Assembly: GCF_000003815.2 (NCBI RefSeq)
Contig: NC_049993.1
Coordinates: 9,977,050 to 10,041,049 of the forward strand
Source: Branchiostoma floridae
Taxonomy: Eukaryota; Chordata; Leptocardii; Amphioxiformes; Branchiostomatidae
Direction of reading: 5' to 3'
Length of the DNA: 64,000 bases
Part shown: positions 170 through 51,765 of the stretch, piece after piece
Position numbering within the stretch: position 1 is the stretch's first letter
How the letters are laid out: the number at the start of each line of letters is the position of its first letter
Made by a program: the position numbers and the translations under genes
The notes under the pieces: generated by a model
Seen by the model: the letters and a program-made list of their open reading frames with translations, nothing else
Databases searched by the model: none
What the model was told of the DNA's origin: nothing

Positions 170-345
170 TAGTCTTGGTCTTGGACCGAAGATTGCCAGT
201 AGCGATAGTCTGTTACTGACGTGAATTTTGGAATCGGTCCAACATCCGGTCCACGGATTTTTTTCAGGTCCGGTTTTTTCGGACCGGTCCAAGAAGAAAA
301 AACGGTTTTGTACCGGTACACTGTACCGATACCCAGCCCTAGTGT
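170..345. mobile_element. GGGTGGGTACC-ended element, partial copy
   Basis: Shares GGTCCAACATCCGG, TTTTTTTCAGGTCCGG, GGACCGGTCCAA and TTTTGTACCGGTAC with the element at 50608. It directly abuts the 59-bp array. The far end is not defined. Confidence 0.65.
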
Positions 346-1422
346 GTATTAAAACACTTGAACATACCTGCAGTGCTAATGAAGAGTTTAGCCATGAAGA
401 GTGTGTATTATAACACCTGAACATACCTGTAGTGCTAATGAACAGTTTAGCCATAAAGAGTGTGTATTATAACACCTGAACATACCTACAGTGCTGATGA
501 AGAGTTTAGCCATGAAGAGTGTGTATTATAACACCTGAACATACCTACAGTGCTGATGAAGAGTTTAGCCATGAAGAGTGTGTATTATAACACCTGAACA
601 TACCTACAGTGCTGATGAAGAGTTTAGCCATGAAGAGTGTGTATTATAACACCTGAACATACCTACAGTGCTAATGAAGAGTTTAGCCATGAAGAGTGTG
701 TATTATAACACCTGAACATACCTACAGTGCTGATGAAGAGTTTAGCCATGAAGAGTGTGTATTATAACACCTGAACATACCTACAGTGCTGATGAAGAGT
801 TTAGCCATGAAGAGTGTGTATTATAACACCTGATCATACCTGTAGTGCTAATGAAGAGTTTAGCCATGAAGAGTGTGTATTATAACACCTGAACATACCT
901 GTAGTGCTAATGAAGAGTTTAGCCATGAAGAGTGTGTATTATAACACCTGAACATACCTGTAGTGCTAATGAAGAGTTTAGCCATGAAGAGTGTGTATTA
1001 TAACACCTGAACATACCTGTAGTGCTAATGAAGAGTTTAGCCATGAAGAGTGTGTATTATAACACCTGATCATACCTGTAGTGCTAATGAAGAGTTTAGC
1101 CATGAAGAGTGTGTATTATAACACCTGAACATACCTGCAGTGCTAATGAAGAGTTCTGCCATGAAGAGTGTGTATTATAACACCTGAACATACCTGTAGT
1201 GCTAATGAAGAGTTTAGCCATGAAGAGTGTGTATTATAACACCTGAACATACCTGTAGTGAAGAGTTCTGCCATGAAGAGTGTGTATTATAACACCTGAA
1301 CATACCTGCAGTGCTGATGAAGAGTTTAGCCATGAAGAGTGTGTATTATAACACCTGAACATACCTGAAGTGCCAGGAAGAGTTCTGCCATGAAGAGTGT
1401 GTATTATAACACCTGAACATAC
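345..1422 (-). repeat. 59-bp tandem array derived from the 3' edge and donor site of PAIP1 exon 4
   Basis: About 18 head-to-tail units of about 59 bp. On the gene strand each unit reads TACACACTCTTCATGGC, then an AACTCTTC stretch, then a CAG|GTATGTTCAGG donor and TGTTATAA. This is the last 40 or so bases of PAIP1 exon 4 plus the first 20 or so of the following intron. Units next to the exon (about 1260-1422) are the same as the exon end, with GGCAGAACTCTTCC. Distal units have drifted to GGCTAAACTCTTCATTAGC. The donor core is kept in nearly all units. Confidence 0.92.
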
Positions 1423-4400
1423 CTGAAGTGCCAGGAAGAGTTCTGCCATGAAGAGTGTGTATCTCTCCAGCCTGTGTAGTCTGGTGCGATCTTTTACCGC
1501 CTCTTCACGCTGTTCAAACTCCACGTGACATCGCTTCAGCAGGTGCTGCCGGAAGTTCCCTGTCTCGCTGGACACTGTCAGGTTGTGGGACAGGTGGTCG
1601 CAGAGCACAGCTCCCGTGTATCTAAAGTTGGGCTGCTCACAAGCCTAAACAAACAAACAAACATCAGTACAGTCATTGTCAGGTTGTGGGACAGGTGGTC
1701 GCAGAGCACAGCTCCTGTGTATCTAAAGTTGGGCTGCTCACAAGCCTTAACAAACAAACAAACATCAGTACAGTCATTGTCAGGTTGTGGGACAGGTGGT
1801 CGCAGAGCACTGCTCTTGTGTATCTGAAGTTGGGCTGTTCACAAGCCTAAACAAACAAACAAACAAACAAACATCAGTACAGCCATTGTCAGGTTGTGGG
1901 ACAGGTGGTCGCAGAGCACTGTTCTTCTGTATCTGAAGTTGGGCTGTTCAAAAGCCTAAACAAACAAACAAACAAACATCAGTACAGTCATTGTCAGGTT
2001 GTGGGATAGGTGGTCGCAGAGCACAGCTCCTGTGTATCTGAAGTTGGGCTGTTCACAAGCCTAAACAAACAAACAAACATCAGTACAGTCATTGTCAGGT
2101 TGTGGGACAGGTGGTCGCAGAGCACAGCTCCTGTGTCTCTAAAGTTGGGCTGCTCACAAGCCTAAACAAACAAACAAACATCAGTACAGTCACTGTCAGG
2201 TTGTGGGACAGGTGGTCGCAGAGCACAGCTCCTGTGTCTCTAAAGTTGGGCTGCTCACAAGCCTAAACAAACAAACAAACAAACAAACATCAGTACAGCC
2301 ATTGTCAGGTTGTGGGACAGGTGGTCGCAGAGCACAGCTCCTGTGTATCTGAAGTTTGGCTGTTCACAAGCCTAAACAAACAAAGAACTATCAGTACAGC
2401 CATTGTAAGGTTGTGGGACAGGTGGTCGCAGAGCACAGCTCCTGTGTATCTAAAGTTGGGCTGCTCACAAGCCTAAACAAACAAACAAACAAACAAACAT
2501 CAGTAAAGCCATTGTCAGGTTGTGGGACAGAGGGTCGCAGAGCACAGAGTTTTGAAAAGATATTTGTGACGTTACTAATGGGCTTTACAGATGATCGATC
2601 ATGTGTTGACTTTCTGGAGTAAGCATTTCCATATGTGATTGGTGAAATATATTCAAATAGACCTGGAATAATCTTGTCTTTGATTTATTCACCTCGTGTA
2701 TGGTCTTGATTTTTTCCAGAAATGTATATTTTTACATGACATTGTCTAGCGCTACTGTGAAATCAACTACAATCCCCAAACACCACAGAGGTCGTTCCGG
2801 CTAATTTCTACATTTCACACTAAATTCCTGAAGCAGGGCGTAATCTTATCCAGCGGTGGAAGGGTTAACAAAAGAATGGACAGGCCATTACCTGTTCATA
2901 GATGGTGTCTACGATCTCCAGGACCGTGTTCCCGTCGCTAATCCACGTGTTCAGCGTGTCGGAGAGGGGGCCAAGCAGATCGTGGAAATCTCCGGGGTTG
3001 TCCGTTAGCTGTACAATGGTGGCTTTCAGGTGCTCGATGGCATTGATGTCTGAGTTGGAACCCCTTCTCTGTACCTGTAAATAAATATATTCCATAAAAT
3101 AAAGAAGTGATTCATCACTTTCTTTATTAAGTTCTGCAAAGAGTAGTGCTTGAAATGAACGTTACCCCAGCCAGTCCCTTGCAAGGTTTGTGGAAGCCAT
3201 AATTTGTAGTAAACATTTTTATTGGATATATATAGAATACAACACGGTGTATTCCATATCACCTGCGAGGTACCAGCCCGACCGCGGGTCGGATCGCCCG
3301 AAGGCCGGAGGGCGATCCGACCCGCGGGAGGGCTGAAGTTTAACAAATTTGGTGCTCTCGAACAAAAAATGTTGCAACAGTAATGTTCCAATGTCCGAAT
3401 CAGGTATTCGAACTTTCGATGGCGCCGTACTCGGTCTGCTCGAAACAGTTGGATTTTTTCAAATGGAGCCCGTGTGATACACCTTTCGAACCTGTGCGAT
3501 ACAGAACTTATGGCCCGGTCCAGAACACCAGTGTCGAACGTTTTCGCGTCACAGGTATGACATAATGAAGTTTTCTTGCCAACCTTTCATTTTTCTATTT
3601 TTCTTACCTATGTTTGATTGTCTGTCTACGTCTGCTATGATCATTAGGATTGAAATTAATGCAGTTCTGAAGCTCCAGTCATTTTCGCAATGGAGAAGGT
3701 GGTACTACGTACCAAAACACTTGGTAATAAGAGTTTCTTTGAAAACTTTAGAAAACTTGACAATACTGTAAATCCATTTAAGTTTGCAGGGATTTCATTT
3801 CGCGGTAGCAGGAAAAAGAACTTTTCGCTGTGGTTTAAAGTTCGCGGTAGCACCATAGACAGTAGTCTCTTATTGCCATGGAAAAATGTTCGTGGCAGTT
3901 TTAAGTTCACGGTGAATCCACCACCGCGAAAAACACGAACATTAAACCTCTGCAAAAGTTTCTGCGTTTACAGTATCCTACAGTACTTATATAGTTGTAA
4001 TCTTTGACAGTGAGGGGATAAAATTTACCACAGTTCTGGGTACAAACTCAGCAGCGTGGACAGACAGTTTGGAAGATGATGCCAGGGTCTTGTCAGAGCT
4101 GATAGACGTGTCGTCAGTGTCGGTACTTCTGCTGTCTGTGCTGTCCACTGCAAGGAGGGCACAAACAGATAATCTCCAAGCAGATCCTACGGCGCCATAA
4201 GATAGTATCAAAGCTGGCCAAGGAGTGTAAGCCGGCTAAGGGAGTCAAACGGGCACCGGAAGTTCCTACGGGAAGTTTGATACTACACATTACGCACCGT
4301 GGATCTGGTTGGAGATTAACAAACAGATACATCCAGATTGTGGATTTTGCACAAATCTCCAAGCAGTTGCAAGGATTTGGCTTATTCTCAGCGTATACAA

Positions 4401-6710: not shown

Positions 6711-7012
6711 TATCAAACTGCATGCCGAATGCCATTTTGTGTTCTGTGCGTTGATTGGTTCACCTCTGCGTACACCCGCGACAGTCCGCGACTTTATTCC
6801 AATCAAAAAGCTGGAAACGCAGAGTATATGTTTACAGCTTCCATTTTTTCTGAGTTCCGATTGGCTATTATTAAACTTGATGCCGATTGTGTTCTGTGTG
6901 TTGATAGGTTCACCTCTGACGTAAAACCGAGAAAGTGACACTTTAAGCCAATCAAAAAGCTTGAAACGTGGAGTACATGTTTACAGCTTCCATTTTTTCT
7001 GATTTCCGGGTG
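6711..7012. repeat. Tandem duplication (period about 157 bp) with CCAAT motifs, between PAIP1 and BRX1
   Basis: Two diverged copies, about 6711-6868 and 6869-7012. They share TGTTCTGTG, GGTTCACCTCTG, CCAATCAAAAAGC and TTTACAGCTTCCATTTTTTC. Each copy contains two CCAAT-box cores (ATTGG or CCAAT), and the ATTGG in the second copy's TTGATAGG is decayed. The site is 650-950 bases upstream of the BRX1 start codon and about 1.3 kb upstream of PAIP1-like. A shared promoter or enhancer role is possible but unproven. Confidence 0.6.
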
Positions 7013-16727: not shown

Positions 16728-17356
16728 GTAAGTTGTGTTCTGATACAAGCGCATACCGCACAGTCGGATATTATTATATGATATATAATAGTACGTCGAA
16801 TATCTAGTACCTCTAGCACAGCGTAAATTAAAATCCTCTGCCCATTTAACGGAACCTGACTTATGCTTACTTTTACTTACTACGTCCTTTGTTTTACTAC
16901 AGTTAATTTCGTGAAAGCCCGACCACATTCGTCGCACTATCACAAGCTGGGGGAATTCTTCGGACAGTTTTGCAAATGTTGCTCAAAATTCGGCCCATTT
17001 TTACGGAAAAATCCTTTCCTAGATCATTGTCGGCGGTTTGTTCTGTCACAGCCTGCTTCAAAATATAGGACATCAAAATCGTGCGACATCCTACAGCGAA
17101 TGTAACCGCACCATAACTCTGTCACATTCAATTCAAATTCATCTCCCTACAGAATTATATTTATAACAGACGTGTAAGACTGGCGTATCGTGAAAAAATG
17201 CAGTTGTCTTCGGACGGAAAAGAATGCCATAGATCCTTATCGACCTTTTGTCGTAATTTCCCCGGAAAGTCTACAGTAGAAGAAATCTTATGTCGGATAA
17301 TCTAAGCTGTAAAACCGAGCACGTTGATCATGATGCTTTGTTGTTTGTTCCACAGG

Positions 17357-18151
17357 ATGAAGACGACTCTGGTGTTGCTTCTTGTCGCCTTGGTCATCTC
17401 GTCTGAGATGATGACTGCGGACAGCTTCACTGCTGGCGCAGAGTGTCCTCCTGGTTTCTGGTGTGAAACTGGAAGAGCTATCGTGAAGGAGCGAGGTTAG
17501 AAGTAGTTTGGATTCCAGACTTTTTCCAGGGAATACACAGGCCAGCTTATTGGCTCCAGGGCAAACGTGGAAGTCAGATGGCCGGCTGTCAGAAAAGGCC
17601 AGCAATCAGCGACCCAGTACAAAAAGAAATGGCCAGCAAAAGTGTACTATGAGCCAAAAAAGGCCATAGAGAGCCTGCTATGGAGGCTACAAGTCAGAGA
17701 AGAAATTTCGCCATGCCCCCCTCTGGAGGGTCTAATGCAGGTGGCTGTGACAAAATTTCTCCTGTAACATCTGCATGTTGGCCCTTTTAATATAATTAGA
17801 CGAGGAGCTCATCAAGTTTGTGTAGGCCATGGATCAGTTTACCATCATCTTCATTGCTTTATATTTTGAACTACCAGGCTCCACAGGTCGCTGGAAGAAT
17901 AATAGAATCAGGTCGCAAACTGTACTTCTTCTCGTAGGTTATCTGTCTTTGGGGCAATTTTGGGGCAATTTTGGGACTAATTCATGAGGAACATTTAATC
18001 ATTGCTGACATGTATATTGAAGTATCATTGTTTGCCCTCAGCCCGCAAAGGTGCGCTTCCTCTGTTTGGGAAGCTGAAGGCGCTGTTGGCCCGCCGCCAG
18101 ACTGAGACTGGCCGCCGTCAGTATGTAGCAGGGCCTCCGGGACCTCCATAA
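17357..18151 (+). CDS. Secreted basic peptide precursor, paralogue A (82 aa)
   Basis: Coding parts are 17357-17495 and 18042-18151; a third, non-coding exon begins at 18653 and a polyadenylation signal AATAAA is at 19032-19037. Residues 1-22 (MKTTLVLLLVALVISSEMMT) are a clear signal peptide. The mature part has a two-cysteine loop, CPPGFWC (residues 30-36), then GR. The conserved core KLKALLARRQTETGRR is preceded by Arg-Lys. Gly-Arg-Arg after TET is a classical site for basic cleavage and C-terminal amidation, as in neuropeptide and antimicrobial precursors. The C-terminal tail is AGPPGPP. The ATG lies one base after the acceptor CCACAG. I do not recognise the family. Paralogues lie at 20996 and 27019 in the same orientation, with related introns and 3' exons. 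Confidence 0.72.
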
Positions 18152-20995: not shown

Positions 20996-22728
20996 ATGAA
21001 AACGACCCTGGTGTTGCTTCTTGTCGCCTTGGTCATCTCGTCTGAGATGATGACTGCGGACAGCTTTGTTGGCGGCGGCGGCAGAGGTGGAAAAGCTATC
21101 ATGAAGGAGCGAGGTTAGTCGAATACTGGATGCCAGACTGCATGTTACAAGGCTCCGAGGCCAACATACCACCACTGAAAATATTTTGTGGCTGACAAAG
21201 GGTTTTGTGGCAAAAAAAAAAGTTCTGTAACATGCATGTTGATCCAAGAGACAAGGAGCTGGCTAGTATAAACCATGGGAACTGTCTGGCATCTAGGCAA
21301 GGTTAGATGGAGACGTCTTTTGAATTTTGCTTCGCAATTTTGACGGCCGGGTGAAAGAAGATTTCACACATCCATTTAAACTTTATAGCTGTTACCGCAG
21401 CCCTCGCCAGACTAACTACACTGACTGAATAGATAAGAACTAGAGTTCCACGAACACATACCTTTGCCAAATAAACCAGGTTTGTTATGTAGAATGATGT
21501 CTGTAGATATAAATTTGTCACTCATTACATTTTATTTTATATGCCTGGAGTTGGTTCATAAAATTTCGCCATTGATTATACAAATTAGATCCATATTTAC
21601 ACTATTAATATCAAATTGTATCAAGCATCACTTAAGCTATCAGCATACCAAAAATCATGATGATCCTTTCATTCTTGACTTATTCTCTTTCAAAGACTGA
21701 AACAAAACCGGCATCTGCAGTTCAAGAAAAGACATTATAGGGGACCCAAACATACACCACTTACTCTCTGCCATCTTTCTCAACTACATATGTGACAAGT
21801 TTGAAAGTGTTATCACGGAATGCAGTGGATCTATCGACTTTCCTCATCAATTATGCAAATTAGCTATTAATTGGTATCTCATTATGTAAGTTTTTACTTA
21901 GGCTATCTACATACCAAAAATCATGACGATCCGTCAACACGTTCATATTTTCCATTAATTATGCAAATGAGATCAACATTTGCATAATTAATATGTATTG
22001 ACAGTTCTTTTTCTCAGCTACAAATGTGACAAGTTTGAAAGTCCTATAATGGAATGCAGTAGATTTACAAACTTTCCTCATTAATTATGCAAATTAGCTG
22101 TCGATTTGCATAATTAGAATTCCATCATGTAAGTCTTCCCTTTGGCTATCTACATACCAAAAATCATGACGATCCGTCAACACATTCATATTTTCTCATT
22201 AATTATGCAAATGAGGTCAATTGCATAATTAATATGCGTTGATATTTTTCTCTTTCTCATCTAAATATGTGACAAGTTTGAAAGTCCTATCATGAAATGC
22301 AGTGGATTTATAAACTTTCCCCATTAATTATACAAATTAGCTGTTGATTTGAATAATTAGTATTCCATTATGTACATTGTTACTTGGGCTATCTACATAC
22401 CAAAAATCATGACGATCCTTCTACACGTTCCCGAGTTATTCTCCTCCAAAGTTTGGCTGCAGTTTCAAACAAGCCGTTAGGGGGTCAAAACTTACAGCAC
22501 TTACTCTCTGCCCCAAGGGCTATTTACCATTTAAACATCGCGACCACAACATGATTGATTGATTGATTAACATGTCCAGAACATGAGATATAAAAAATTG
22601 AGTTTCTGCTGCAGTACCTTAGCAAGCCGCTAGGGAGCCCATTATCGAACTTGACCTTCGATTTCCCAACCCCTACCCACCTACCAAATATTATCGGGAT
22701 CCATCCGAGGCTTCTTGAGTTATGCTGT

Positions 22729-22773
<45 letters not shown>

Positions 22774-24057
22774 CACACAGACACACACACACAGAGACTC
22801 ACAAGCACAAAACATAACCATAGCCATTCTGGCACTGTCGCTATATTTGGGTGTAATGGTTACGTCATGCCCAAGCCTATAGTGTAAGATTGACAAGAAG
22901 TGACCCCAAAGGTCATAGTTGCTGCAAAAGAGGTCAACACGACTATGAACCAGACGATACGATTACAAGAAAATTGTTTATAGGGACAGTACATTATACA
23001 TGATGGGGTGTATACATGCTATGTACACATAAGATTTAATAATCTGTAGACCAAGAATAAGGGCAACTAGGGGGCCCAAACTTATGTTACTAACTCCTGA
23101 GCATAAGAGCTATCTAACACCCAAAACTCGTGGCCATACCATGTTCAGAAGATGGAAAACACACCCGGAAGTTGCGCTGCAGTACCAGGGGAAGCCGCTA
23201 GGGGGCCCATTATCGCACTTCCCCTTCGTTTCCCAGACCCCTACCNNNNNNNNNNNNNNNNNNNNNNNNNNNNNNNNNNNNNNNNNNNNNNNNNNNNNNN
23301 NNNNNNNNNNNNNNNNNNNNNNNNNNNNNNNNNNNNNNNNNNNNNCCACCAAATACGAGCTGCATCCGTCGAAGTCTTCTCGAGTTATGCTGTCCGCAGA
23401 CAAAAGTTTGCAAATTAAACCAGCGCCCGCACTTCCATGAAAGCCACTAGGGGGCCCAAACTCGCAGCAATCACTCCCTGCTTTAAGGGCTCCCTAACGC
23501 TCAAAAATCACGACCGCAGCATGTCCGGAACGCGAGATATCAAGCATGCAGGTCCCGCTGCAGTACCTTAGCAAGCCGCTAGGAGGCCCATTATCGAACT
23601 CGACCTTCGTCTTCCACACCCCTACCCACCCACCAAATATCAGCCGCATCCATCGAAGTCCTCTCGAGTTATGCTGCTCACAAACGGGGAGAACCACACC
23701 ACCAAACCGAAAACATAACCTTAGCCATTCTGGCAAAGGTAATAAAATGACTGGGAGAATATGTATGAAAAGGCTCGGTGAGGACCACAACGCTAGTCGA
23801 CAAGTCTCAATAGACAATTTCTGTTCGTAGGATTTTAGACAGCATTGAAAGTAAACGTAATTACTCATCAGAACCACATACCACAGTAGTCATCGCTGAT
23901 GTGTGTGTTGATGTGCCATTGTTTGTTCTAAGCCCGCAGAGGCGTGTCTCCCGTTGAGGCTCAGAAGCTGAAGGCGCTGTTGGCCCGCCGCCAGGCTGAG
24001 ACTGGACGCCGTGAAGTGGAACCCCCGAGCTCGGGAGGGAGAGGCCGCGTCAAATGA
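20996..24057 (+). CDS. Secreted basic peptide precursor, paralogue B (80 aa)
   Basis: Coding parts are 20996-21113 and 23933-24057, joined in phase 1. The signal peptide is the same as in paralogue A (MKTTLVLLLVALVISSEMMT). The middle is different: SFVGGGGRGGK, with no cysteines. The core is GVSPVEAQKLKALLARRQ, then AETGRR, flanked by ARR and GRR processing sites that would release a 21-residue amidated peptide. The tail is Gly/Arg-rich with SSGGRGRVK. The 2.8-kb intron is expanded by AT-rich repeats and contains the assembly gap, so the link between the two exons rests on phase and homology. The 3' exon starts at 24673; AATAAA is at 25093-25098. Confidence 0.7.
21464..22430. repeat. AT-rich tandem units (about 242-270 bp) in the intron of peptide gene B
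   Basis: Four imperfect units each contain ACATACCAAAAATCATGACG, a stretch like AATTATGCAAATTAGCTG and ATGTGACAAGTTTGAAAGT. Unit starts lie near 21632, 21903, 22146 and 22388. They belong to the dispersed repeat family that also occurs at 36560, 47180 and 50973. Confidence 0.8.
22728..22800. repeat. (AC)n microsatellite
   Basis: Nearly uninterrupted AC dinucleotides with single G substitutions. The same AC tract sits inside other copies of the dispersed repeat family, for example at 51659-51680. Confidence 0.95.
23040..23740. repeat. Dispersed repeat family, GAGTTATGCTG-type block flanking the gap
   Basis: Two tandem partial blocks, each with GCAGTACC, AGCCGCTAGG(G)GGCCC, TTCC(C)A(G/C)ACCCCTACC and TCGAGTTATGCTG. 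This is the same block order as at 22440-22730 and 51395-51640. No coding capacity. Confidence 0.75.
23246..23345. other. Assembly gap (100 N)
   Basis: Exactly 100 unresolved bases inside repetitive sequence: blocks on both sides share CCGCTAGGGGGCCC and GAGTTATGCTG words. The round length suggests a placeholder, so the true distance is unknown. Confidence 0.99.
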
Positions 24058-26463: not shown

Positions 26464-27018
26464 TTAAAGGTAGTCATTCTACAGGAGAATTCTGGCTAGT
26501 ACGTACGTCGCAACTTTTTAACAGTTTTTTTTTAGTTTTAACTACGTCTTCCTTCGTTTTACTTGGATTATTCTCGTGAAAGCCCGACCACATTCGTACC
26601 ACGATCACAAACTAATGGAATTCTTCGGACAGTCTTGCAAATGTCGCTCAAAATTCAGCTCTCTTTTCAGGAAAATTCTTTCCTAGATCATTGTCTGTGG
26701 TTTGTTCTGTCACAGCCTGCTTCAAACTATACATTAAAATCGTACGACGTCCTAGGACGGATGATGCCATGCATATTTCTCTGTCGCATTCAATGCAACT
26801 TCATAGCTCCATAGAATTCATATTAGCAGACAGAGGGTATACTGGAGACAGCTGTGGTCGTGTCGTGAAAAAACGCACAGATCAGATCGATCCTTATCGA
26901 CCTTTTGTCTTACTTTTGCCGCAAATTCTACAACAGAAGAATCGTGTGACAAATCTCAGACATACAGGTTGTAAATCCAGACACTTTTATCATGATGTTT
27001 TATTGTTTGTTCCACAAG

Positions 27019-27808
27019 ATGAAAACGACGCTGGTGTTGCTTCTTGTCGCCTTGGTCATCTCGTCTGAGATGATGACTGCGGACAGCTTCGTTGCTGGCG
27101 GTGCGGGTACTATCCCTATAGGAAGAGCTTTCAAGGAGCCCAATCCTGATGCCCGACTGTTTTCAGGGCCTACACATGCCAGCTCCGTGGCTCCAGGGCA
27201 AACTTGCATGTCACAGAAGAAATTTCGCCATGCCCCCGTCAGCAGCTGCAGGGCCTGATGCAGGTGCCTGTGATGAACGTTCTTCGGTAACATGCATGTT
27301 GGCCCTGTAGACGAGGAGTTTCTCGGGCCTGGGTAGGCCCTGGGATCAGTTTGCTATCATCTTCATCGTTTTTCGTTTACATTTTGAACTTCTACCAGGC
27401 TCCATGCGTCGCTGGAAAAGTAAAAGAATTAGGCCGAAAACTGTTTTCCTTTGTCAGGCATTTTACTTTTATGGTATGTTACCTGTATTTGGGGGAATTT
27501 CTACATTTTGCAAACTGTACTCCTCGGTAAGCTAACTCCTCTGGCATGTTGTTTGTCTTCTTAGTAAATTTTTACTTTTTCCCAGCGATCTGTTGAGTCT
27601 GGTAGAAGCAGAGATTTGAACAATTCACCAAGAACACGTAGTCATTGCTGAGATGTCTATTGAAGTATCATGTTTTCTGCCAGCCCGCAGAGGCGTGTCT
27701 CCCGTTGAGGCTCAGAAGCTGAAGGCGCTGTTGGCCCGCCGCCAGACTGAGACTGGACGCCGTCAGTATGAAGCAGGACCTCCGGGACCTCAAGCTCCAC
27801 AGTGGTGA
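27019..27808 (+). CDS. Secreted basic peptide precursor, paralogue C (about 70 aa if the alternative donor is used)
   Basis: The first coding exon starts at 27019 and repeats the signal peptide and ADSF. The second is 27684-27808, encoding ARRGVSPVEAQKLKALLARR, then QTETGRR and a tail QYEAGPPGPQAPQW. The donor used in A and B (GAGCGAG|GTTAG) is missing: the matching position reads AAGGAGCCCAATCC. A phase-1 GT at 27107 (GTGCGG|GTACTA) would join the exons in frame. Otherwise the first exon reads on to a stop at 27258. The acceptor before the ATG is also changed (CCACAAG for CCACAG) but still ends in AG. So either a remodelled gene or a recent pseudogene. The 3' exon starts at 28394; an ATTAAA signal is at 28678-28683. 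Confidence 0.6.
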
Positions 27809-34793: not shown

Positions 34794-37669
34794 ACAGAAC
34801 TATTGAGGAAGATTAAAAAGTGACATCTAAAGTCTGACATGAATTTAAAAGAAAAAAAAAATATAACATAATGGTAAATGAGCTTCATTGATGCTACAAC
34901 ATGGTAGAGAAAGACGGCAAGGAACAAGTAAGTATCGTGACGTACATTTGCGTAAGACGATAATCTGCAGCTGCCTAAATCGTTCATTGCTGTATTTCTT
35001 TATATTTTTCATCTAGTATGCGTGTGTGTTATGGGTGGGTACCCGTGAGGTGTACCGGTACAAAACCGGTTTTTCATATCGGACCGGTCCACAAAAAACC
35101 GGACCTGAAAAAATACTGTGGACAGGATGTTGGACCTATTGGCAAAATGAACAGATTATGTGATCAGGCATTCACACATTTTGGGGCTTACCGGTCGAAA
35201 AAAATAACAACAGCGAATTAAAGTAGAGTCTATATTCATTTTACCAAGTTTTACAATCAATCATACAGTCAGTTAGCCTTGTAGGATTTTATAACGCCAG
35301 TGGGAGTCTAATACTCCACAAAACAGATTTCCTTGTTGCGAAATAGACCATTGTTTTGAGTATCGTCTATTCACAAGTTTTCACATACTGAATAAGGTCC
35401 AGGTTCGGACCTGGACCTGATCCTCTGGACCTGAACCGGACCTGGACCTGAATCTTCTGTACCGGTACCCACCCCTAGGGCCTAGTGTGTGTCTTTATTT
35501 TTCGACTTCATTTATCGAACTTACCTGGATCCGAACACAATAGAACAGATCACGTTAGTGACGGCATTCTGGACCATACGGCTAATGTCGAACGGTTTGT
35601 TCCCCATCTTTATGATCTCTGCCTGAAGAGCGACTGACTCCTCCAGGATCTTTCCCTCCATGCTCCTCTTCCCGAAGCCGAACTCTCTCAGAGACATCAG
35701 AGTGAACTTCCGGTGTTCCTTCCACGGAGTTCCGAAAGGAGCGGCGATGATACCTGAAAAATATACTTTATTCGTTCAAACAATCAAATCAATTAGTGAC
35801 TAAATCAATCAATCAATTAATTATGCCAACGACTTGAGACCTGTAAAATATTTCAGATGCCCTTTAGACTAGTACGCTAGCACCTAAAGAAACGGTTGAA
35901 AAATAAAAAAAACAAAACAATGTCGTCGTCACCTGAAACCACGTGGCGATTGTAATGAATCCGTAATTCAGCCATTGGTTGCGAGTGATTTTAGTTTGAA
36001 TAAACCATTCCGATGATGATCATCATCAGAGACCACTTTTCCATACCCCATTCGCGTCACAAACTGCGCATGTGCCGCGAAATGCACTGAGAATACGATG
36101 TCAAAGTTGAAGGATTCCAACTTGCAAACAGTTTTCTGTCTAAGCAAGCTTAATACGTGTGCGGATGTGTTCTGTCTATGTCTCAGACGCCTTCAATTTT
36201 GGTGTAATTAGCTACGATGCGCAGTTAAATCTGTGACATGCTTAGATTAATGGCCAAAGTATTGACTAAAGAGTCACTAAAATTAAGAGACAAAATTAGC
36301 ACATCTAGTGGTTCGCACGGGTTCTTACCTAGCCTCTGGGGGTTGAGAAGCTTAGTCAAGGGATCCGTTGGTCTGGTTGAAAAATCTTCTCCTCTCTTCA
36401 CCAGTGCCTCGTGCATGACGTCATATCCGGAGAGTATAACCGTTGTTTCCCTCCCCAGCTTTATTGTGTAGACAGGTCCGTACATCTTTGCCCATTCGGT
36501 CATCGTCAGAAAGCGGTGGCCCTTGGGGTAAAGATATAGCCAGCATACTGTCTATGGTGTTCACATACATCTTTGAATATTACCTACATGAAAAATGGAG
36601 GTGTAGTTTTTGGTGTGTATGTGTGTGTGCGTGTGTCTGTCTGTGTGTCCGGATGATCCCGGATACTTGTGGTCAGCATAACTTTAGAACCTGTGGATGG
36701 ATTGTAATGATCTTTGGTATATGGGTAAGTGCAAATCATGCAAATTTGGACTTAATTTGCATACTTAATGAGGAAAATTTATATTTCCAGCAGTTTCTAT
36801 TATAGGACTCAAATACATATGTAATTTGTAGCAGGTGGAAGATAAGCAGATGCCAATTATGCAAAAAGGCCCTAATTTGCATAATCAATGTGAAAGTGTC
36901 CTAATTCATCTAAATACACGTAGTAAATTATTTGATTGTCAACATTGTGACTTGTTTAAGTTATTTCAATTTGTACATAAGCAAGCATAAATTATGCAAA
37001 TGTGCAAGTCATTTGCATAATCAGAATATTTTTCCATCAGGTGGTGCGTCACTGTACAAAGAGATTCTATTTTCACAACCGTTGCTTTATTTACAACCGA
37101 CCAGAGAAGTACAGCCGCTTAGGGAACAGCGCGAAGTCGATTTTTCCAGCGACCTATGGTGTCAGGTAGACACTACAGGTCTCCCGTCCGGGTAAATGAT
37201 GCGAATCACCGTGTGGCTGATACGGTATGTAGGTACGCCAGGCCTCCAAACGGGTCATTTGAAGTGAATCGCAGCATATATCTATCTCCAGGCAGAAGGA
37301 TTTGCTCCATCGCACACCGGGTCATGCACATACTTTTTGCTTTAAGAGGTTATCAGTCATTCAGGTAACGTTATGACATTGTCTTACCTTGTTAACGTTA
37401 CCAAACGCCTGGTTATTAAGACTTAAAAACGCCAATGTTGGATTCTTTAAATTCTTGAGGAGGAATGTTTTCCTAACTACCGTAATTTTGCCTACCATTG
37501 CGAGAGAGAAGACATTACCGACGACAGGCCATCCTCTTGGGCCGGGTGGAAGGTTCTTAGGTGTGCTGAAGAACCATGACGTCGCCACGAACACCAGTAA
37601 GAGGACCAGAGCCGTCTGTAAGATCACGTTCTCGCCAACTAAAGACGTAACCAACTGTGCGGCAGCCAT
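30945..37669 (-). CDS. Cytochrome P450, CYP2-type (microsomal), complete, 7 exons
   Basis: Coding exons in gene order: 37496-37669, 36329-36521, 35525-35753, 34046-34454, 33643-33840, 33102-33228 and 30945-31126. All phases match and give about 503 residues, normal for the family. An N-terminal membrane anchor (about residues 17-36) is followed by the proline hinge PPGPRGWP (41-48). The I-helix has AGAETTSTTL (A310-T315), the K-helix ExxR is E367-R370, and the haem loop FGIGPRICLG has its Cys at 448. These are the full set for a working haem-thiolate monooxygenase of the endoplasmic reticulum. CYP2 clan enzymes oxidise small lipophilic compounds such as fatty acids, eicosanoids or xenobiotics; the substrate cannot be read here. 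The first exon also has a second in-phase donor at about 37388, which would insert 36 residues. Introns 1 and 6 are filled with repeats. Confidence 0.93.
31735..31975 (-). mobile_element. tRNA-derived SINE in CYP2 intron 6
   Basis: On the minus strand an A-box-like TGGCGTATTCGTCAGCG is followed by a B-box-like AGATTCGAAACC. Then comes the conserved body GGGAAAGGCACTTTACATGG and TTTCCTCACTTCACTG, typical of tRNA-headed SINEs with a shared central domain. No terminator of its own and no intact tRNA fold. Confidence 0.72.
32113..32345 (+). repeat. Dispersed repeat with CCCCCACAAAAA motif, copy 1
   Basis: Contains GGCGGCACAGTGGGGGGCAG, GCCCCCACAAAAA twice, and AAAATTTGCCCCAGAAAATG. The reverse complement of the same order of words is found at about 49375-49575. 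No coding capacity. Confidence 0.65.
32402..32528. mobile_element. Palindromic MITE (127 bp) in CYP2 intron 6
   Basis: The left arm GACACGGACCAAGCATCCC with TTCCTG and TTCTATTCC is mirrored by the right arm GGAATAGAA, CAGGAAG and GGGATGCTTGGTCCGTGTC. The loop is about 20 bases. It looks like a very short hairpin transposon remnant. Confidence 0.85.
34735..34793. repeat. (AC)n(AT)n microsatellite in CYP2 intron 3
   Basis: About 17 AC steps followed directly by about 11 AT steps. Confidence 0.97.
35033..35475. mobile_element. GGGTGGGTACC-ended inverted-repeat element, most complete copy
   Basis: The left end GGGTGGGTACCCGTGAGGTG and a right end of GTACCGGTACCCACCCC are inverted. The interior has nested inverted words (ACCGGTACAAAACCGG, CGGACCGGTCC, GGTCCAGGTTCGGACC). 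Fragments occur at about 170-345, 29300-29485 and 50608-51765. No coding capacity, and in CYP2 intron 3. Confidence 0.75.
36560..37060. repeat. AC/GT-containing dispersed repeat in CYP2 intron 1
   Basis: It starts near CATGAAAAATGGAGGTGTAG, then a GT-rich tract (36618-36650), CAGCATAACTTTAGAACC and several ATTATGCAAA words. The order is the same as at 47190-47600 and, inverted, 50973-51733. Confidence 0.72.
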
Positions 37670-39602: not shown

Positions 39603-40403
39603 CTAAGAAGCGTGTTTGTCCAGGTGTTTCTTTAGATGCCTTTTGTCTGTAACAGCATAGTCGCATTGGTCACATTTGTAGGGTTTCTCGCTTGTATGTG
39701 TTCTCATATGTCGGGATAGGTCAATCTTGCGAGCAGTTCTGTATCCACACTTTCCACACATGTAGGGTTTTTCTCCGGAATGTTTAGTCATGTGTTGGTC
39801 TAAATTTCCTTTCTTTGCAGCAGAATAGTCACACTGGCCACACTTATAAGGTTTCACGCCAGTATGTTTTCTCATATGTACGGTTAAAGAGGCCCGGTTA
39901 GCCGTTCTATATCCGCACTCTCCACACATGAAGGGTTTCTCTCCGGTGTGTCTAGTCATGTGTTGGTCCAAACTGTGTTTGGTTGCCGCAGCATAGTCAC
40001 ACTCATCACATTTATAGTCTTTTTCCCCGGTGTGTTTAGTCATGTGTTGGTCTAAACTTCCTTTCTGTGAAGCAGAATACTCGCACTGGTCACATTTATA
40101 CGGTTTTTCACCTGTATGTTTTCTTGTGTGTATCAATAGTTGAGACCTAAAGGCTGCTCTATAGTCACATTCCGTACACGCAAAGCGTTTGTCCACAATA
40201 CGTTTCACCGCAAGCCTGTCCGCCTGCTTTGTTTTAACTTGTGCAGGATTTTCAGACTTTACACTGCATGTTTCCTCGCAGGGAATGTCCCCCTCCTTGT
40301 TTTGCTGCCTTCCCGTGTCTAATGTCTCGCTGCTGCTTGTATCGTCCCCAGGGTGAACAGCTGGATGATCGTCCATAGCGACCTCACCGCTACTCTCGCC
40401 CAT
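39603..40403 (-). CDS. C2H2 zinc-finger protein with seven fingers (266 aa)
   Basis: The ATG at 40403-40401 lies two bases after a good acceptor (TTATTATTCTTTTCAG). The coding region is therefore a single exon behind a 5' untranslated intron, with a likely donor at 40704-40703. Residues 1-73 are acidic and low in structure. Seven C2H2 fingers of 28-residue spacing start at about residues 74, 102, 130, 158, 186, 214 and 242, joined by TGEKPY-type linkers (one is TGVKPY, one TSEKPY). Most have a C-x2-C-x-Y pattern (CDQCEYSAS, CGECGYRTA), seen in large lineage-expanded zinc-finger families. It probably binds DNA as a nuclear regulator, target unknown. The open frame continues 21 codons upstream of this ATG into the intron. 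No KRAB, SCAN or BTB domain is visible. Confidence 0.87.
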   Translation of the reverse strand: MGESSGEVAMDDHPAVHPGDDTSSSETLDTGRQQNKEGDIPCEETCSVKSENPAQVKTKQADRLAVKRIVDKRFACTECDYRAAFRSQLLIHTRKHTGEKPYKCDQCEYSASQKGSLDQHMTKHTGEKDYKCDECDYAAATKHSLDQHMTRHTGEKPFMCGECGYRTANRASLTVHMRKHTGVKPYKCGQCDYSAAKKGNLDQHMTKHSGEKPYMCGKCGYRTARKIDLSRHMRTHTSEKPYKCDQCDYAVTDKRHLKKHLDKHAS

Positions 40404-43140
40404 TTCTGAAAAGAATAATAAATCCTCCAATATATTATTAGTCTTGATTGGGACTATTCTATTCATATGGAATACAACAAGATGTAGTCCGTATTAAATT
40501 ACGTACACATGCATGCACAGATATACGCTTATCCGTACATGTGCACACACAAACACACATGCACAAACACACACACATGCACGCACGCACGTACATACAC
40601 ACATAGATGCATACACACACACATGCACACAGTACAAACACATACACACACACGCGTACAAATAACGTTACATAAAAACACATAAACAACTATACACTAT
40701 TTACCTACCGGTTTATGGTTCTGACTAACTGCTAATGTGTTACGAGAATAATTTGTCTTCAAAATGGCCAGACTGGACACAAATGGATCTTGCCCGTGAT
40801 CATCCGATAAATCAAAATGGCGGCCTGGCAAACTGACCTTTCAGCTATGTGGAGGTCGACGGTCAAAGTTGATATACCTGATTACCTAAGTTATAGATTT
40901 CAGTCCCTTAATTGCTCCCTCCATATAAGCTATAGGTCCCCCGTATTTTATCTAATTCTGTAAGGAAAAGATTGCAATCCTCACCCATACTTATTCTCCC
41001 ATCAGCTTGTTGCTGTATTAATGCCTGTATGATAAGTAATACAAATTAATTTTTCGTTTCTTTAAACGTCCCGATCTTTGGAAATTTGACCACATAAATT
41101 AGGTATACTTAATTCATCTTTTTTTTCCATTTTGCATTTTCTTTGAACAGTGTCAGCTTCTGTCAGAAATAAGTGGTCACGCAAAATCTAATCAATTCGT
41201 ATTGATATCAAAACTGACAAAAGTGTCCACAACGCAGGGTAAAACATTTTTGCTCGCTGGTAGCAAATCTGTTGGTTTGTTGCCTACAAAAGGACGTACA
41301 TGGTTAACATAAGTATATTGTGTAATAAGACAATACGTTGTGATTGCCAACTCTTGCCATTTTTTATACTCATGGCTTTTATATAGATGGTATCGTTGTG
41401 TGACATGTGTGATGATTATCCGTCAACTCAAAGAGCCTCTAAAGACTATATTCGAGTAAATGATCATATTAGACATCATAAAAGATAAAAAAATCATTAT
41501 GTACGGTGAGTGAACTCATTATCTGCATATGGCTTTATTGTCTTTCCAGAGGGAAAAATGCCGTTACATTTACATGTACTTCTACAAGTATGACAGTTTT
41601 TGGCTCAGGTCTAAAGTTCAAACGATGTTGCATGCACCTTTTAATTCCCTCAGCTCACTCTGATTTATGTCACTCTAAATGCAATTTTCGTACCATTTTG
41701 TTCTTTTTGAAATCCCTTGTCGTTATGATAAACAACCAACCGACCATGTTATTTTAGGTCTATTTTACTTCCACCATCATTTTACACAGAGTAGTCCACT
41801 TAGTGGTTTACACACGTACACTGCTTTGCAGTGGAGCCCTATATTACATAAATCGAAATGAAACATATACATATGGTGTTAATGTGACATACAAAGAGAA
41901 AAATTACAAACAATAAATAAAACGAATAAATATGATTAGTAATGAACTGATGTGAACAATAACAATAATCATAGCAAATAAGCACTACTAATGATTACAA
42001 CAATATTCATCATCATCATCCTTGCGGACCAAGTCCACCCTCTCCTTCCAGACATCTCTGCCCCCCAAAGCGTTCTTTAACAATATTAATACAAATAATC
42101 CGTACAAATTATTCTGCAGTTGTCTAAATGACAGAAATACTTACCAACACAGATGTTAGATGAAAGTCAAAGTTAAGGCACTGCTACACTTATTAGGGAT
42201 AAAACGGCTGGATAACAGAACAAAATAATAATAATAATAATAATAATAAAATAAAAACAATGATAGAGGACATTTAATCGGTGTTTATGGTGACATAACG
42301 CCTGGCAAGTGACCATCTTGTTAACCACTGAGAGAGCTGCCAACATTCCATCAAACATTGACCTGCCAGTTTACCAAATATCAATGCACTAATTTCCTTT
42401 TCTTTCACTATTTTACTACGGTCAATACTGACCAAAGGAGACCATACTTACGTCTTCTTCGTAAAGCAATGCTGATGAAGTTATCACTATATCAATAAGA
42501 TGTATGAAGACAACCTAGATACATGAAAGAATACACATCCTACAGTCGTCAATTACTAAATGTGTAGAGCTACATGATAGACACTAGGATGCTATTAGTA
42601 GTAATCATGACGCAGTTGCAATTTGTGCCATGGCAGTGTGATCGTGATCTGCATCATTGATTCTAATCTTCGAATCTATCGTACCAATACAAGCTCAAAT
42701 TACTAAACAGCAAAACAGTGTATCGGTCACCCACAATGCTTTTTATCGAATGAATGAATGAATGAATGTATATGGTTTATCGTTGTGTATTGCGACTTTT
42801 AAGTCGCCATGCCCACATGGGCTTATAGAACACTAAATAACAGAAGGATACATCAAGTCAAATCAAATTCTTATGTTTTGTTTGAATGCCTTGTATTCCG
42901 ATTCTAGACATAACATCTTTGCTGACACTGAAGGGACTACCCTACAAGATCAATAAATAAATTAATGAAAATTTATCGTTAGTTTGCGTGGTCTTAGCCT
43001 AAGAGGGTATCATGTTTCCCCCTTTGACCCCACTATAAAGAATAATATCATGTTCTTTCCTCAACCTCACCGAACATCTAAAAACCCTCGCCCCGAGGAT
43101 AATCTAAATACATTACATGTTATCAATGGCAAGATTTGAT
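40404..43140. other. Intergenic DNA between the zinc-finger and lectin genes
   Basis: It holds a CA-rich tract (40500-40665) and a probable 5' untranslated exon of the zinc-finger gene on the minus strand ending at the donor at 40704. There is an (AAT)n microsatellite at 42222-42252 and an ATGA tetranucleotide run at 42752-42768. I see no convincing coding frame. Confidence 0.55.
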
Positions 43141-43185: not shown

Positions 43186-46100
43186 CTAGGCTGGAGCACA
43201 CTGACAAATGTAAGGCTTGGACCACCAGCAATCACTGTCGTCCCACATGGGATCACGGCTGGCTTTGCCGCCTGACCAGTACTGACCACACAACAGAAAC
43301 GGACATCTTAACCATCCGTTGCTTGGCTGGCCTGGATACCATCCCTGTTCGAAAAGAGAGAAGGTAGTTATAATTGTTAATCCATTTGTATGTATATTTG
43401 TCAGCAGGGCTAGCCCTTTGTTGTAACCACGGTGCTAGTTGAGCTGTCCTGACTGTGCGTACTTAACGAATACAACAAACACCAATATATAGATAAATAT
43501 TCACCCCTGGATTGCAATCTTAACTTTTAAGGAGATTGCTTAATCAATAACTTTTAAGGAGATTGCATGGCACGACCTTATAATTACTTGTAGATTCAAT
43601 TTTTCAACACTTGTAAATGAGTGCGTGCTAAATAGTGAAGCAGTAAGTGAGTGCGTTTGTAGGGGGAAAACGGCACAATTTACATGAATCTAGGGGCAAA
43701 ACTACAAGGGATTACATGACAAATATACTTACTTACAACAAATATACTTACTCACTTACTCCGGAGCAGTTTTTTTTTACTCCGGAGCAGTTTTTTTTTT
43801 TTTACTCCGGAGCAGTTTTTTTTTTACTCCGGAGCAACACGTATAGCTACTCCAAAGCAATAATTCAATGTATGTACGTATAGACGGTATAGGTCCGTAC
43901 GTACATGACAAATATACTTACTTTTAACAAATATTATTACTCAAATATTATATCATTTGGGGGGGGGGGGTATTGGGGGTTGTCATAGTTACCTTGGTGG
44001 GTCAAAAGGTCGACCTGACCCCTCTTTCACCCCTACCCAGAGCTCAGAAAAATACCTTTTTTACCTATACTACTAATAAGTTCTCTCTCTCTCTCTATTC
44101 CTCTCAATGGCAAACTAGCCGCGTCCGCATACCGTGTATTGGTCACCCTCCTTCGACCCCGGGACCTTCGACCCGTCCACCCAATACCAGCTGCAGCTCC
44201 CTCTCTCCTCCATGCCGATCCAGTGTTCCTTGTTACCTCCTTCCGTTTTGACCAGGTTTCTCAGAGCGATGTCCAGTTCTTCTGTTTTCGGCATGGCCAG
44301 TGTACATCCTTCTTCAAGGCAGGCCGAGCGGGCATTCCAGTGAGACTTCCCGTCCCGAGCAAGCCTGATGCAGGTCCCAGCAAGGAATGTATACCCGATT
44401 CGGCAACCGTCCTTGACATCTGAAAAAGTTTAGGATAGTCGTTTTACCATTTTCTAAAACAACAAATAACGTTTTAGTACACAGGGTGTGTTTTTATCTT
44501 AAAATTGTGTCATATTGACTGTGAGATGGCCAGTGTGGCTCCTTCCCTCATTGCCGTCAATACGGAATGATGGGACTGCCACGTGTACGAAATTCCGTAT
44601 GTCAACTGGATAAGAGCCCCGGAAACTAGTTTTAACTGGATAAGAGCCCCGGCAACTAGTTTGAACTGGATAAGAGTCCCTGCAACTAGTTTGTAGCAAG
44701 TTCCACGACTTTTATCTTTTGTAGATGAAACAGCTAAAAACCTGGTTTACGTATTTTTTTTTAAATAAACATATTGCAGAAGACAAGCAAACAAATCTCA
44801 TTCTATAGCTTGGGGGGGGGGGCATTGTATTGAGATTGAATATCGTACGCCAAACAGATGTTTTACCAGATGTTCCAACTCCCTCGGAGTTTCCAACTCC
44901 CTCTGGCGGTGCACTTGCCACCTCTGGTTGTGTAGGCGCGACCCCTAGCGGTGCAGTTGTCACCCCTGGCGGTGCAGGTGCGACCTTTAGCGGTGCAGTT
45001 GCCACCTCTGGCGGTACAGGTGCGACCTCTAGCGATGGTGCAGGTGTCATCATCGCAAATGCCCATGATAAGGATATGTTCTTTGCAAGAAAAGACTCGA
45101 TGATATTTGCGGATGCGGGTTTTAAGTCAGCTGGTTGCGCTGTCTCAGCCTGCTGTGAAAAATACAGAAACAATGTAAAAGTCATATAGACTATTTATTC
45201 ATACGCTCGTAGCCTCTGTTGCTGGTTCGCAATTAGAACGGAGCAAAACTACTTTCCACGGTAAACTCTCTTCATTCACAATATCCCTTTCCCGGCATAA
45301 TTGAACATAGGCCTGCAACGGAGGTAAGTCTTTTCAAACCTACAATATAATTGTCCATCAAAGAAAAGGGGTGCTGTGATGATTGTAGTAATCTATTGAT
45401 TTTTTCAAATAGTCTTGACTTAAAATTCCCTTTTCTGTGCCAAGGTTCCAGGGTTTGACTTCATAACTACTATGAAGCACAGAAAACTCTTATAGCGTCT
45501 ACCACTGCAAACAATGACAGGAAAAGGTTGGCATACTTCTAGTCAAAAGTTTGAACCTTTTGTTCTACAGGTAACATTAATATCATCAAACTATGCAGAG
45601 TGAACCAGAATAGTTTTAACAAAGTTGATAGAATCAAGACATATTTCAGAAAACCTGAATATTGTGTTCGAATTTCAACTTTCAGATAAGCTCTTTCAAA
45701 GTTGTATCAAAGTTTATAATTGTTTCTAACCCTACAACTTGAAAATGTCCTCCTCGCTGATGAATACAGGGCTTTGGTCATATGTATTTGTCTACAGATA
45801 CTACTACAGCTTGTGGATTGGGTGTCTATATGGTATTATCATATAGCCAGGCGCCGCGGACCAATAAGATGGCCCCGTTCCATGTTGGTTATGACGCCGT
45901 AACACATAGATTCCGGCCACACTGTGTGTATCGCTCCTTCTGATTAGTCAGAATTTGCAGTTGTTCTAAGGCAAAGACTGCAATGTTTCGAAAATTTTCT
46001 GTGGAAATTGTGGCTTCAAAATGTATGTACCAACGAACAAATGTGAATTTTCAGAAATTCGACAAAGGAATTACGTACCAAGGGATCTATGGGTCATACA

Positions 46101-50164: not shown

Positions 50165-50607
50165 CGTGTACCTAGAATGTAGCAACTGAACGAACTGAAC
50201 ACGAGAAATCTTCTTTCTGCTATTTGGCGATAAATTTGGATGTGATAATACCGACTGCTCCGGCCAATCAGTCTGCTGGAATGCTATGCTTTTTTTTAAA
50301 TACATACATACATACATGTACAAAGTAACACAGTGACCTTTCAGGCAACTTGTCTAGACTACTCACGTAGATGTATACAATCTCATGAAAAATCCATTCA
50401 CGTAGTTCAATGTTCAAATACGTAATGGAAAATCCAAAAAGTAATCTAGTGAATTGTCTGCACTGCAGATAGAAAATATGATGACACCCACGGGTAGAAT
50501 GGCAATACCATGTGATAAGTTGATTTATTCATCATTACTGTGAAAAATAACACGTCATGCAGTCATGGCTACCCAACTATCCAGAGGCTTAGTAACAATA
50601 CAAATTA

Positions 50608-51765
50608 GGGGTGGGTACCAGTACAGAAAAATAAGGTCCTCGTCCTGGCCCTGATTCAGTATGTGAAAACTTGTGAATAGACTATACTCAAAACAGTGGT
50701 CCATTTCGCTACAAAGACATCTGTTTTGTGGAGTATTCGGCTCCCATTGGTGTTTTAAAATCCTACAAGACTGTAAAACTTGGTAGAAATGACAACATAC
50801 TCAGGTCTACTTCTCCCTTGTTATTTTCTTCGACAGGTAAGTCCCAACACGTGTAAATGCCTGATCAGGTAATCTGTTCATTTTCCAATAGGTCCAACAT
50901 CCGGACCACCGATTTTTTTCAGGTCCGGTTTTTCCGGACCGGTCCAATAAGAACAAGAGTTCGGAGACCTCATATCTCCATGAAATAAATCTGATTATGT
51001 AAATGATTTCCACATTTACATAATATATGCTTGGTGATATACACATTTGAATAACGTACACTGGTCACAATGTTTGGCGCAATCATTTGCCATTTAGAAG
51101 AATTATAGCACTTTTACATTGATCATGCAAATTAGGGACGTATTTGCATAATTTATATCTGCTAATGTTCCACCAGCCACAAACTACATATATGGTAGGT
51201 ATTTGAGTCCTACAATGGTAAACACTACAAATATAGATTTCCCTCATTAATTGTGCAAATTAAGTGTCAATTTGCATAATTTGCACTTGATGATGTACAT
51301 CTCTGTCTAAGCTAACTACACACCAAATATCATCTAAATTTGTCGTTCCCTTGTCCAGTTATCCTCTTTAGAAGATTTTGAGAAAAACGCCCCTGCAGTT
51401 CCAGAGCAACCTGCTAGGGGACCCAAACATGCACAACATATTCCTCAGGTCACGAGCTATCTGCCACAAAAAAATCAAGACCATCCAGGTCAAAAGATAC
51501 AAAAAAATGGAATTTCTGCTGCAGTACCAAGGTCACATACCAGGGGACTCAAAATTGACCTTAACCTTTGTCTGCCCGACATCTACCCACATACCAAATA
51601 TCATAGCAATCCGTATAGAGGTTCTTGAGTTATGCTGACCACGAATATCCAGAAACACAAACACACACACACACACACAGACAGACACACGCACAGATAC
51701 ACCCAAAACTATATGTCCATTTTCATGGAGATAAAAATCGGTTTTGTACCGGTACCTAGCCCTAA
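50608..51765. mobile_element. GGGTGGGTACC-ended element interrupted by a nested insertion
   Basis: The left end AGGGGTGGGTACC and right end GGTACCTAGCCCTA bracket sequence that matches the 35033 element in reverse order (GTCCAACATCCGGACC, GGACCGGTCCAA, GGTTTTGTACCGGTAC). It is split by the 50973-51733 element, so it is the older of the two insertions. Confidence 0.75.
50973..51733. mobile_element. Nested AC-containing repeat with TATCTCCATGAAA terminal inverted repeats
   Basis: The ends TATCTCCATGAAA and TTTCATGGAGATA are 13-bp inverted repeats. The interior has ATTATGCAAAT-type words, CGCCCCTGCAGTTCC, GAGGTTCTTGAGTTATGCTG and an (AC)n tract. This copy defines the ends of the dispersed family seen elsewhere in the window. 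No coding capacity. Confidence 0.75.

Follow-up and report, generated by a model that had tools for sequence, protein, structure and literature searches.

The 64,000-nucleotide stretch of Branchiostoma floridae contig NC_049993.1 analysed here (the window, in whose positions all coordinates are given) carries near its start part of a minus-strand gene predicted to be PAIP1-like, the coding exon 4 of which lies between two tandem arrays, one repeating its acceptor edge and the other its donor edge. The 74 residues encoded by this exon match the MIF4G region of PAIP1 (Pfam E-value 8.1e-7; 29.4 bits, which is 1.4 bits under the Pfam gathering score) and, with an E-value of 8.7e-18, the human PAIP1 chain 3rk6. 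When exons 3 and 4 are joined (135 residues) the match to human PAIP1 reaches an E-value of 3.3e-27, whereas no eIF4G protein does better than 1.8e-4, in agreement with an earlier note on this DNA that had assigned the exon to PAIP1. Its own splice sites are the acceptor TTTAG/GCTTGT and the donor TTCAG/GTATGT (a slash marks the junction).

Tandem Repeats Finder (TRF) places one array at 341-1462, with 19.2 copies at period 59, and the other at 1576-2547, for which it gives 9.3 copies at period 101 as well as periods of 210 and 416. We cut the units on the minus (coding) strand, and each count takes in the presumed functional exon edge, which is the innermost unit in both arrays. Donor units consist of bases from the exon end (41 in 16 of the 19, 40 in two and 35 in one), with an extra base within this exon part in 16/19, followed by 18 intron bases that usually read GTATGTTCAGGTGTTATA. 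The motif /GTATG is kept in 19/19 and is part of CAG/GTATG in 13/19; two units have GTATGA instead of GTATGT, and the outermost shows two further intron-base differences. Acceptor units typically comprise ATGACTGTACTGATG, followed by a run of TTTG that closes with AG, and then 69 bases matching the exon start (9/9 complete units), the intron part amounting to 32-40 bases with TACTGA and AG. The succession TACTGA...AG/GCTT is kept in all nine complete units, one of which has TTAAG for TTTAG and one an altered TTTG run, and the truncated unit is devoid of a splice signal; the unit lengths of 101, 105 and 109 bp are whole TTTG steps apart. Hence, to judge from these motifs, each array looks like the repetition of an apparently complete splice-site module, namely a branch-point-like motif with its T-rich tract and AG in the acceptor array, and a donor in the other.

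Comparison of these segments with the whole window by blastn (7-base words, E-values up to 1) recovered, for the exon core, the self match and one 17-base stretch elsewhere (E-value 0.78). The innermost unit of each array gave no match in the other array; that of the acceptor array matches other places weakly and over short lengths, most strongly (E-value 4e-4) a repeat near 55840-55876 via its TTTG run. The picture drawn in the earlier note, of an exon between two arrays without common sequence, is thus upheld, as TRF finds both and the units cut out carry exon-derived bases plus a splice site, the exon part being present in all 19 donor and nine complete acceptor units. Its estimate of about nine acceptor units of 101-109 bp with some 70 exon bases agrees with our count; on the other side exon bases and donor are indeed repeated, but the roughly 18 units become 19 when the functional one is counted. 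Likewise, the middle of the exon is single copy in the window as claimed, although it ends at 1575 rather than about 1574. That two separate amplifications took place is supported by the different units, the lack of a detected common sequence and the different variant lengths and orders. Finally, the donor array has no simple end near 345, where the note let the region start; at 341 it borders directly on a dispersed repeat, at the tip of the latter.

Table 1. Features of the exon 4 locus and of the associated repeat family
Feature	Position	Strand	Remarks
PAIP1-like coding exon 4	1423..1644	minus	222 nt; both ends in phase 0; Pfam MIF4G and human PAIP1 matches
PAIP1-like exon 3	2892..3074	minus	183 nt; in-frame junction with exon 4
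Donor array	350..1462	minus	19 units (16 of 59 bp, 2 of 58, 1 of 53); downstream of exon 4
Partial 20th donor unit	342..349	minus	first 8 bases, ATACACAC; possible target-site duplication of adjoining element
Exon 4 core	1463..1575	minus	113 bp; single copy within the window (blastn against whole window)
Acceptor array	1576..2512	minus	9 complete units (101 bp x5, 105 x1, 109 x3); upstream of exon 4
Truncated outermost acceptor unit	2513..2547	minus	exon-derived part only
End of dispersed hAT-like repeat	225..341	minus	tip TAGGGCTGGG...; at outer edge of donor array
hAT-like element	50606-51764		1,159 bp; inverted TAGGG tips; perfect 8-bp flanking duplication ATACAAAT; relative of donor-edge repeat

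The multiplicity of sites raises the question of how the correct ones are chosen. Only two of the 171 acceptor-donor pairings are in frame and free of stops, namely the innermost pair (222 nt) and the pairing A1-D3 (339 nt); the remaining 169 would introduce a frameshift or a stop. Predicted U1 pairing of the 19 donors ranges from -7.7 to -8.8 kcal/mol, with the innermost donor at -8.4 and that of exon 3 at -8.6. As 9/19 donors pair more strongly than the innermost one, by at most 0.4 kcal/mol, strength alone cannot select the correct donor. The acceptors have 13-15 pyrimidines in 20 positions, 14 in the innermost, the pyrimidine count being our sole acceptor measure. The correct sites are therefore unmarked by these simple strength measures, and something other than strength, most likely position, must decide. 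Position as the likeliest guide is suggested by established knowledge of splicing, in which exon definition prefers those acceptors and donors that lie closest together and enclose a short exon. With 19 donors of near-equal U1 pairing and nine similar acceptors, the locus amounts to a natural test of spliceosome choice.

Adjacent donor units are more similar than under random order (lag-1 identity 95.4 versus 93.2; p 0.002, 5000 permutations), and identity drops with distance, that to the innermost unit being 100% for unit 2, then 88-93%, and 86-88% for the eight outermost; units D4 and D6 appear by eye to be mosaics.

At its outer edge the donor array meets a dispersed repeat that we take to be of the hAT family, given that its relative at 50606-51764 has the inverted tips and 8-bp duplication that we associate with hAT elements. 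The tip joining the array at 341 reads TAGGGCTGGGTATCGG, and the 15-base pattern obtained by omitting its first T has four window matches with up to three mismatches against 0.71 expected; a second tip of this repeat was not found within the window. The eight bases next to the tip are the opening bases of an array unit, and from this junction it is likely that the element inserted into the donor array and so cuts its outer edge; further donor units may follow on the far side of the element, outside the window. A further relative at 35030-35477 has no directly adjoining 8-bp duplication, and GTGTGTGT occurs at its left and again seven bases past its right end. The 9-base ATACACACT, present at the inner and outer ends of the donor array, was considered as a starting microhomology, but this reading lacked support and was abandoned, since the hAT-like tip forms the outer end and these bases can be a target site within another unit.

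Minisatellites of intron-exon boundaries have been described from lancelets as mirages, at both 5' and 3' exon boundaries, in the available portions of two papers (PMC3087553, PMC3902484), so the statement of the earlier note that no class was described for such an arrangement does not hold. The present locus fits the anatomical definition of a mirage twice: the units of both arrays span the exon-intron boundary, and AG/GT signals are found in 19/19 donors and 9/9 complete acceptors. We propose, with good confidence, that it is a double mirage, in which two independent short tandem duplications, one across the acceptor and one across the donor of exon 4, would have grown into minisatellites via slippage or unequal exchange, with the innermost pair of sites in use and the extra copies largely neutral. 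A duplication crossing an exon edge would keep the exon whole, with the innermost copy joined to the core and the surplus copies on the intron side; the spliceosome would then pair the innermost acceptor and donor, which delimit the shortest of the possible exons, in keeping with exon definition and perhaps assisted by enhancers in the core. Such duplications would be tolerated because the innermost splice pair still yields an intact exon, and the core would be single copy because duplications inside it mostly break the coding sequence and are removed. In favour of this reading are the anatomy, the two productive pairings out of 171, the middling U1 pairing of the innermost donor, the similarity of neighbouring donor units, and the regular splicing and haplotype-dependent copy number reported for published lancelet mirages. 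In all probability, then, the arrays are no new device, and tandem duplication produced them as a side effect that the gene tolerates.

Several observations weigh against this proposal. The acceptor array is without a neighbour effect (lag-1 p 0.51), so that with regard to concerted evolution within the cluster, a further trait of mirages, the two arrays differ (p 0.002 for the donor units). Moreover, seven of the 12 variants in the exon part of the acceptor units are synonymous against 26% expected (one-sided p 0.02), in a test that is one among several and has a small sample of non-independent copies (nine complete units, with the truncated one excluded, the innermost copy as reference and transitions weighted 2); this excess hints that the units exchanged sequence with one that is selected for its coding function, as opposed to drifting freely. 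On neither side is the initial outer breakpoint preserved, given the truncation at 2547 and the element at 341. Furthermore, single-strand DNA folding of five segments revealed no unusual stability (z -1.16 to 0.38), and DNA hairpins were rejected as a cause of slippage on this result.

An alternative that we regard as unlikely is that tandem duplication arises preferentially, as a mutational hotspot, at splice junctions, which would give both arrays a shared cause. In simulations that placed 30, 50 or 80 exons, each of 170 bp, at invented positions in a 64-kb stretch, a 59-bp and a 101-bp seed dropped at random fell on opposite edges of one exon in 0.005%, 0.020% and 0.024% of trials, respectively, which speaks for a hotspot. 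However, with seven seeds, given the unit sizes of seven arrays chosen from the 37 rows of the TRF output (leaving out, among others, simple repeats and the zinc-finger array), the proportion rises to 0.21%, 0.29% and 0.49%. Genome-wide, a rough calculation on assumed numbers, with two mirages in 15 globin genes (both counts from the available portion of PMC3087553), for which 60-90 edges were assumed, and an assumed 100,000-200,000 internal exons, predicts 49 to 222 double-edge exons. One such exon is accordingly striking locally and, on this rough estimate, unsurprising globally, if the genome is as rich in mirages as that of the lancelet. Survivorship would moreover yield the same pattern as a hotspot, edge-crossing duplications being tolerated and those in the core not, and reporting is biased because arrays confined to introns are noticed less. 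Should double mirages turn out to be more frequent than expected from multiplying the rates for single edges, duplication would have genuine hotspots at exon edges.

We hold it improbable that the arrays are an assembly artefact, with unresolved alleles or stacked reads rendered as false tandem copies. The window does contain a sign of draft assembly, a gap of 100 Ns at 23246-23345, and one globin mirage is reported as apparently misassembled in the draft genome (PMC3087553, in part). Against this, the variants are ordered and mosaic, there are several unit lengths, and the outer ends are marked by a truncated unit and an element tip; misassembly may alter copy number, but would be an unlikely source of two different arrays. 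Marginally less credible again is the idea that the extra sites are functional and that copy number tunes the fraction of unproductive PAIP1 transcripts by poison splicing. The retention of splice motifs in 19/19 donors and 9/9 complete acceptors and the frameshift or stop predicted for 169/171 pairings speak for it, but young or homogenised copies keep their motifs without selection, so that their survival proves little, and splicing is reported to proceed undisturbed at the mirages published so far (PMC3087553, PMC3902484, in the portions available). Least probable of all is a splicing control tuned by copy number, in which the surplus sites, 169/171 pairings being unproductive and the 13/19 donors with CAG/GTATG resembling ratchet (re-splicing) sites, would divert a fraction of PAIP1 transcripts to decay and length polymorphism would set PAIP1 dosage between individuals or tissues.

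Elsewhere in the window, an open frame close to a minus-strand C-type lectin exon contains three 30-bp tandem units at 44604-44693, all of which read TTATCCAG/TT with an acceptor-like end; the process behind the exon 4 arrays may have acted here too, on a small scale and within coding sequence. Further tandem arrays, at 6737-7008 (149 bp x 1.8) and 21774-22430 (243 bp x 2.7), are outside identified exons. Of 20 open frames scanned, ten matched within the cut-offs, one of these weakly and below Pfam's score. Other genes in the window encode P450, C2H2 zinc-finger (39606-40493), lectin, VWA and sushi proteins, a set in keeping with a lancelet though no proof of one; the zinc-finger protein has a wording similar to that of lancelet proteins. 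Two plus-strand open frames at 17306-17500 and 26950-27255, with MKTTLVLLLVALVISSEMMTADSF in both, have the look of a gene duplication, the product being a small secreted protein.

Among known systems, the minisatellite of human IFI6 (6-16) has repeated splice donors in a tandem array at an exon end and resembles our donor array in this respect, but has a short unit and affects one edge only. In lancelets the founding and name-giving mirage case is Adh3, with units of 10-72 bp and somatic instability (via PMC3087553 and PMC3902484, both in part); the latter also cites Adh and troponin C cases. The available portion of PMC3087553 reports, from B. floridae, a BflGb6 mirage in the 5' part of exon 2, with six and three units in two haplotypes, and a BflGb9 mirage at the 3' boundary of exon 2. 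These globin mirages have units of 150-160 bp with splice signals in many, not all, and vary in copy number between haplotypes, and regular splicing is apparently undisturbed (PMC3087553). The PAIP1-like locus shares with them the minisatellite-like tandem duplication of an intron-exon boundary, but, unlike these cases with one edge per exon and up to six units, it has both edges affected, with 9 and 19 units. Similarly, lancelet PGBD5 has 60-bp and 108-bp repeats at splice sites, in copies of 2 or 7 and 3 or 6 that vary by assembly (PMC3902484, in part); there, however, the repeats are at the neighbouring exons 3 and 4, whereas here they flank the two edges of one exon. No case involving both edges of one exon was present among the matches listed from the open-licence literature on boundary repeats and lancelet minisatellites, as far as the accessible portions go. 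Mirages have been proposed as a source of new introns (PMC3087553), and intron gain via tandem duplication of AG/GT segments (Rogers, cited therein) and the possible formation of novel introns from human variable internal repeats at exon-intron boundaries (PMC2812944) are discussed in the available parts of these sources. Although no new exon or intron is demonstrated here, the duplicated segments carry AG/GT as in that intron-gain model, and the locus makes legible a recent stage on the path by which tandem duplication has been proposed to create introns.
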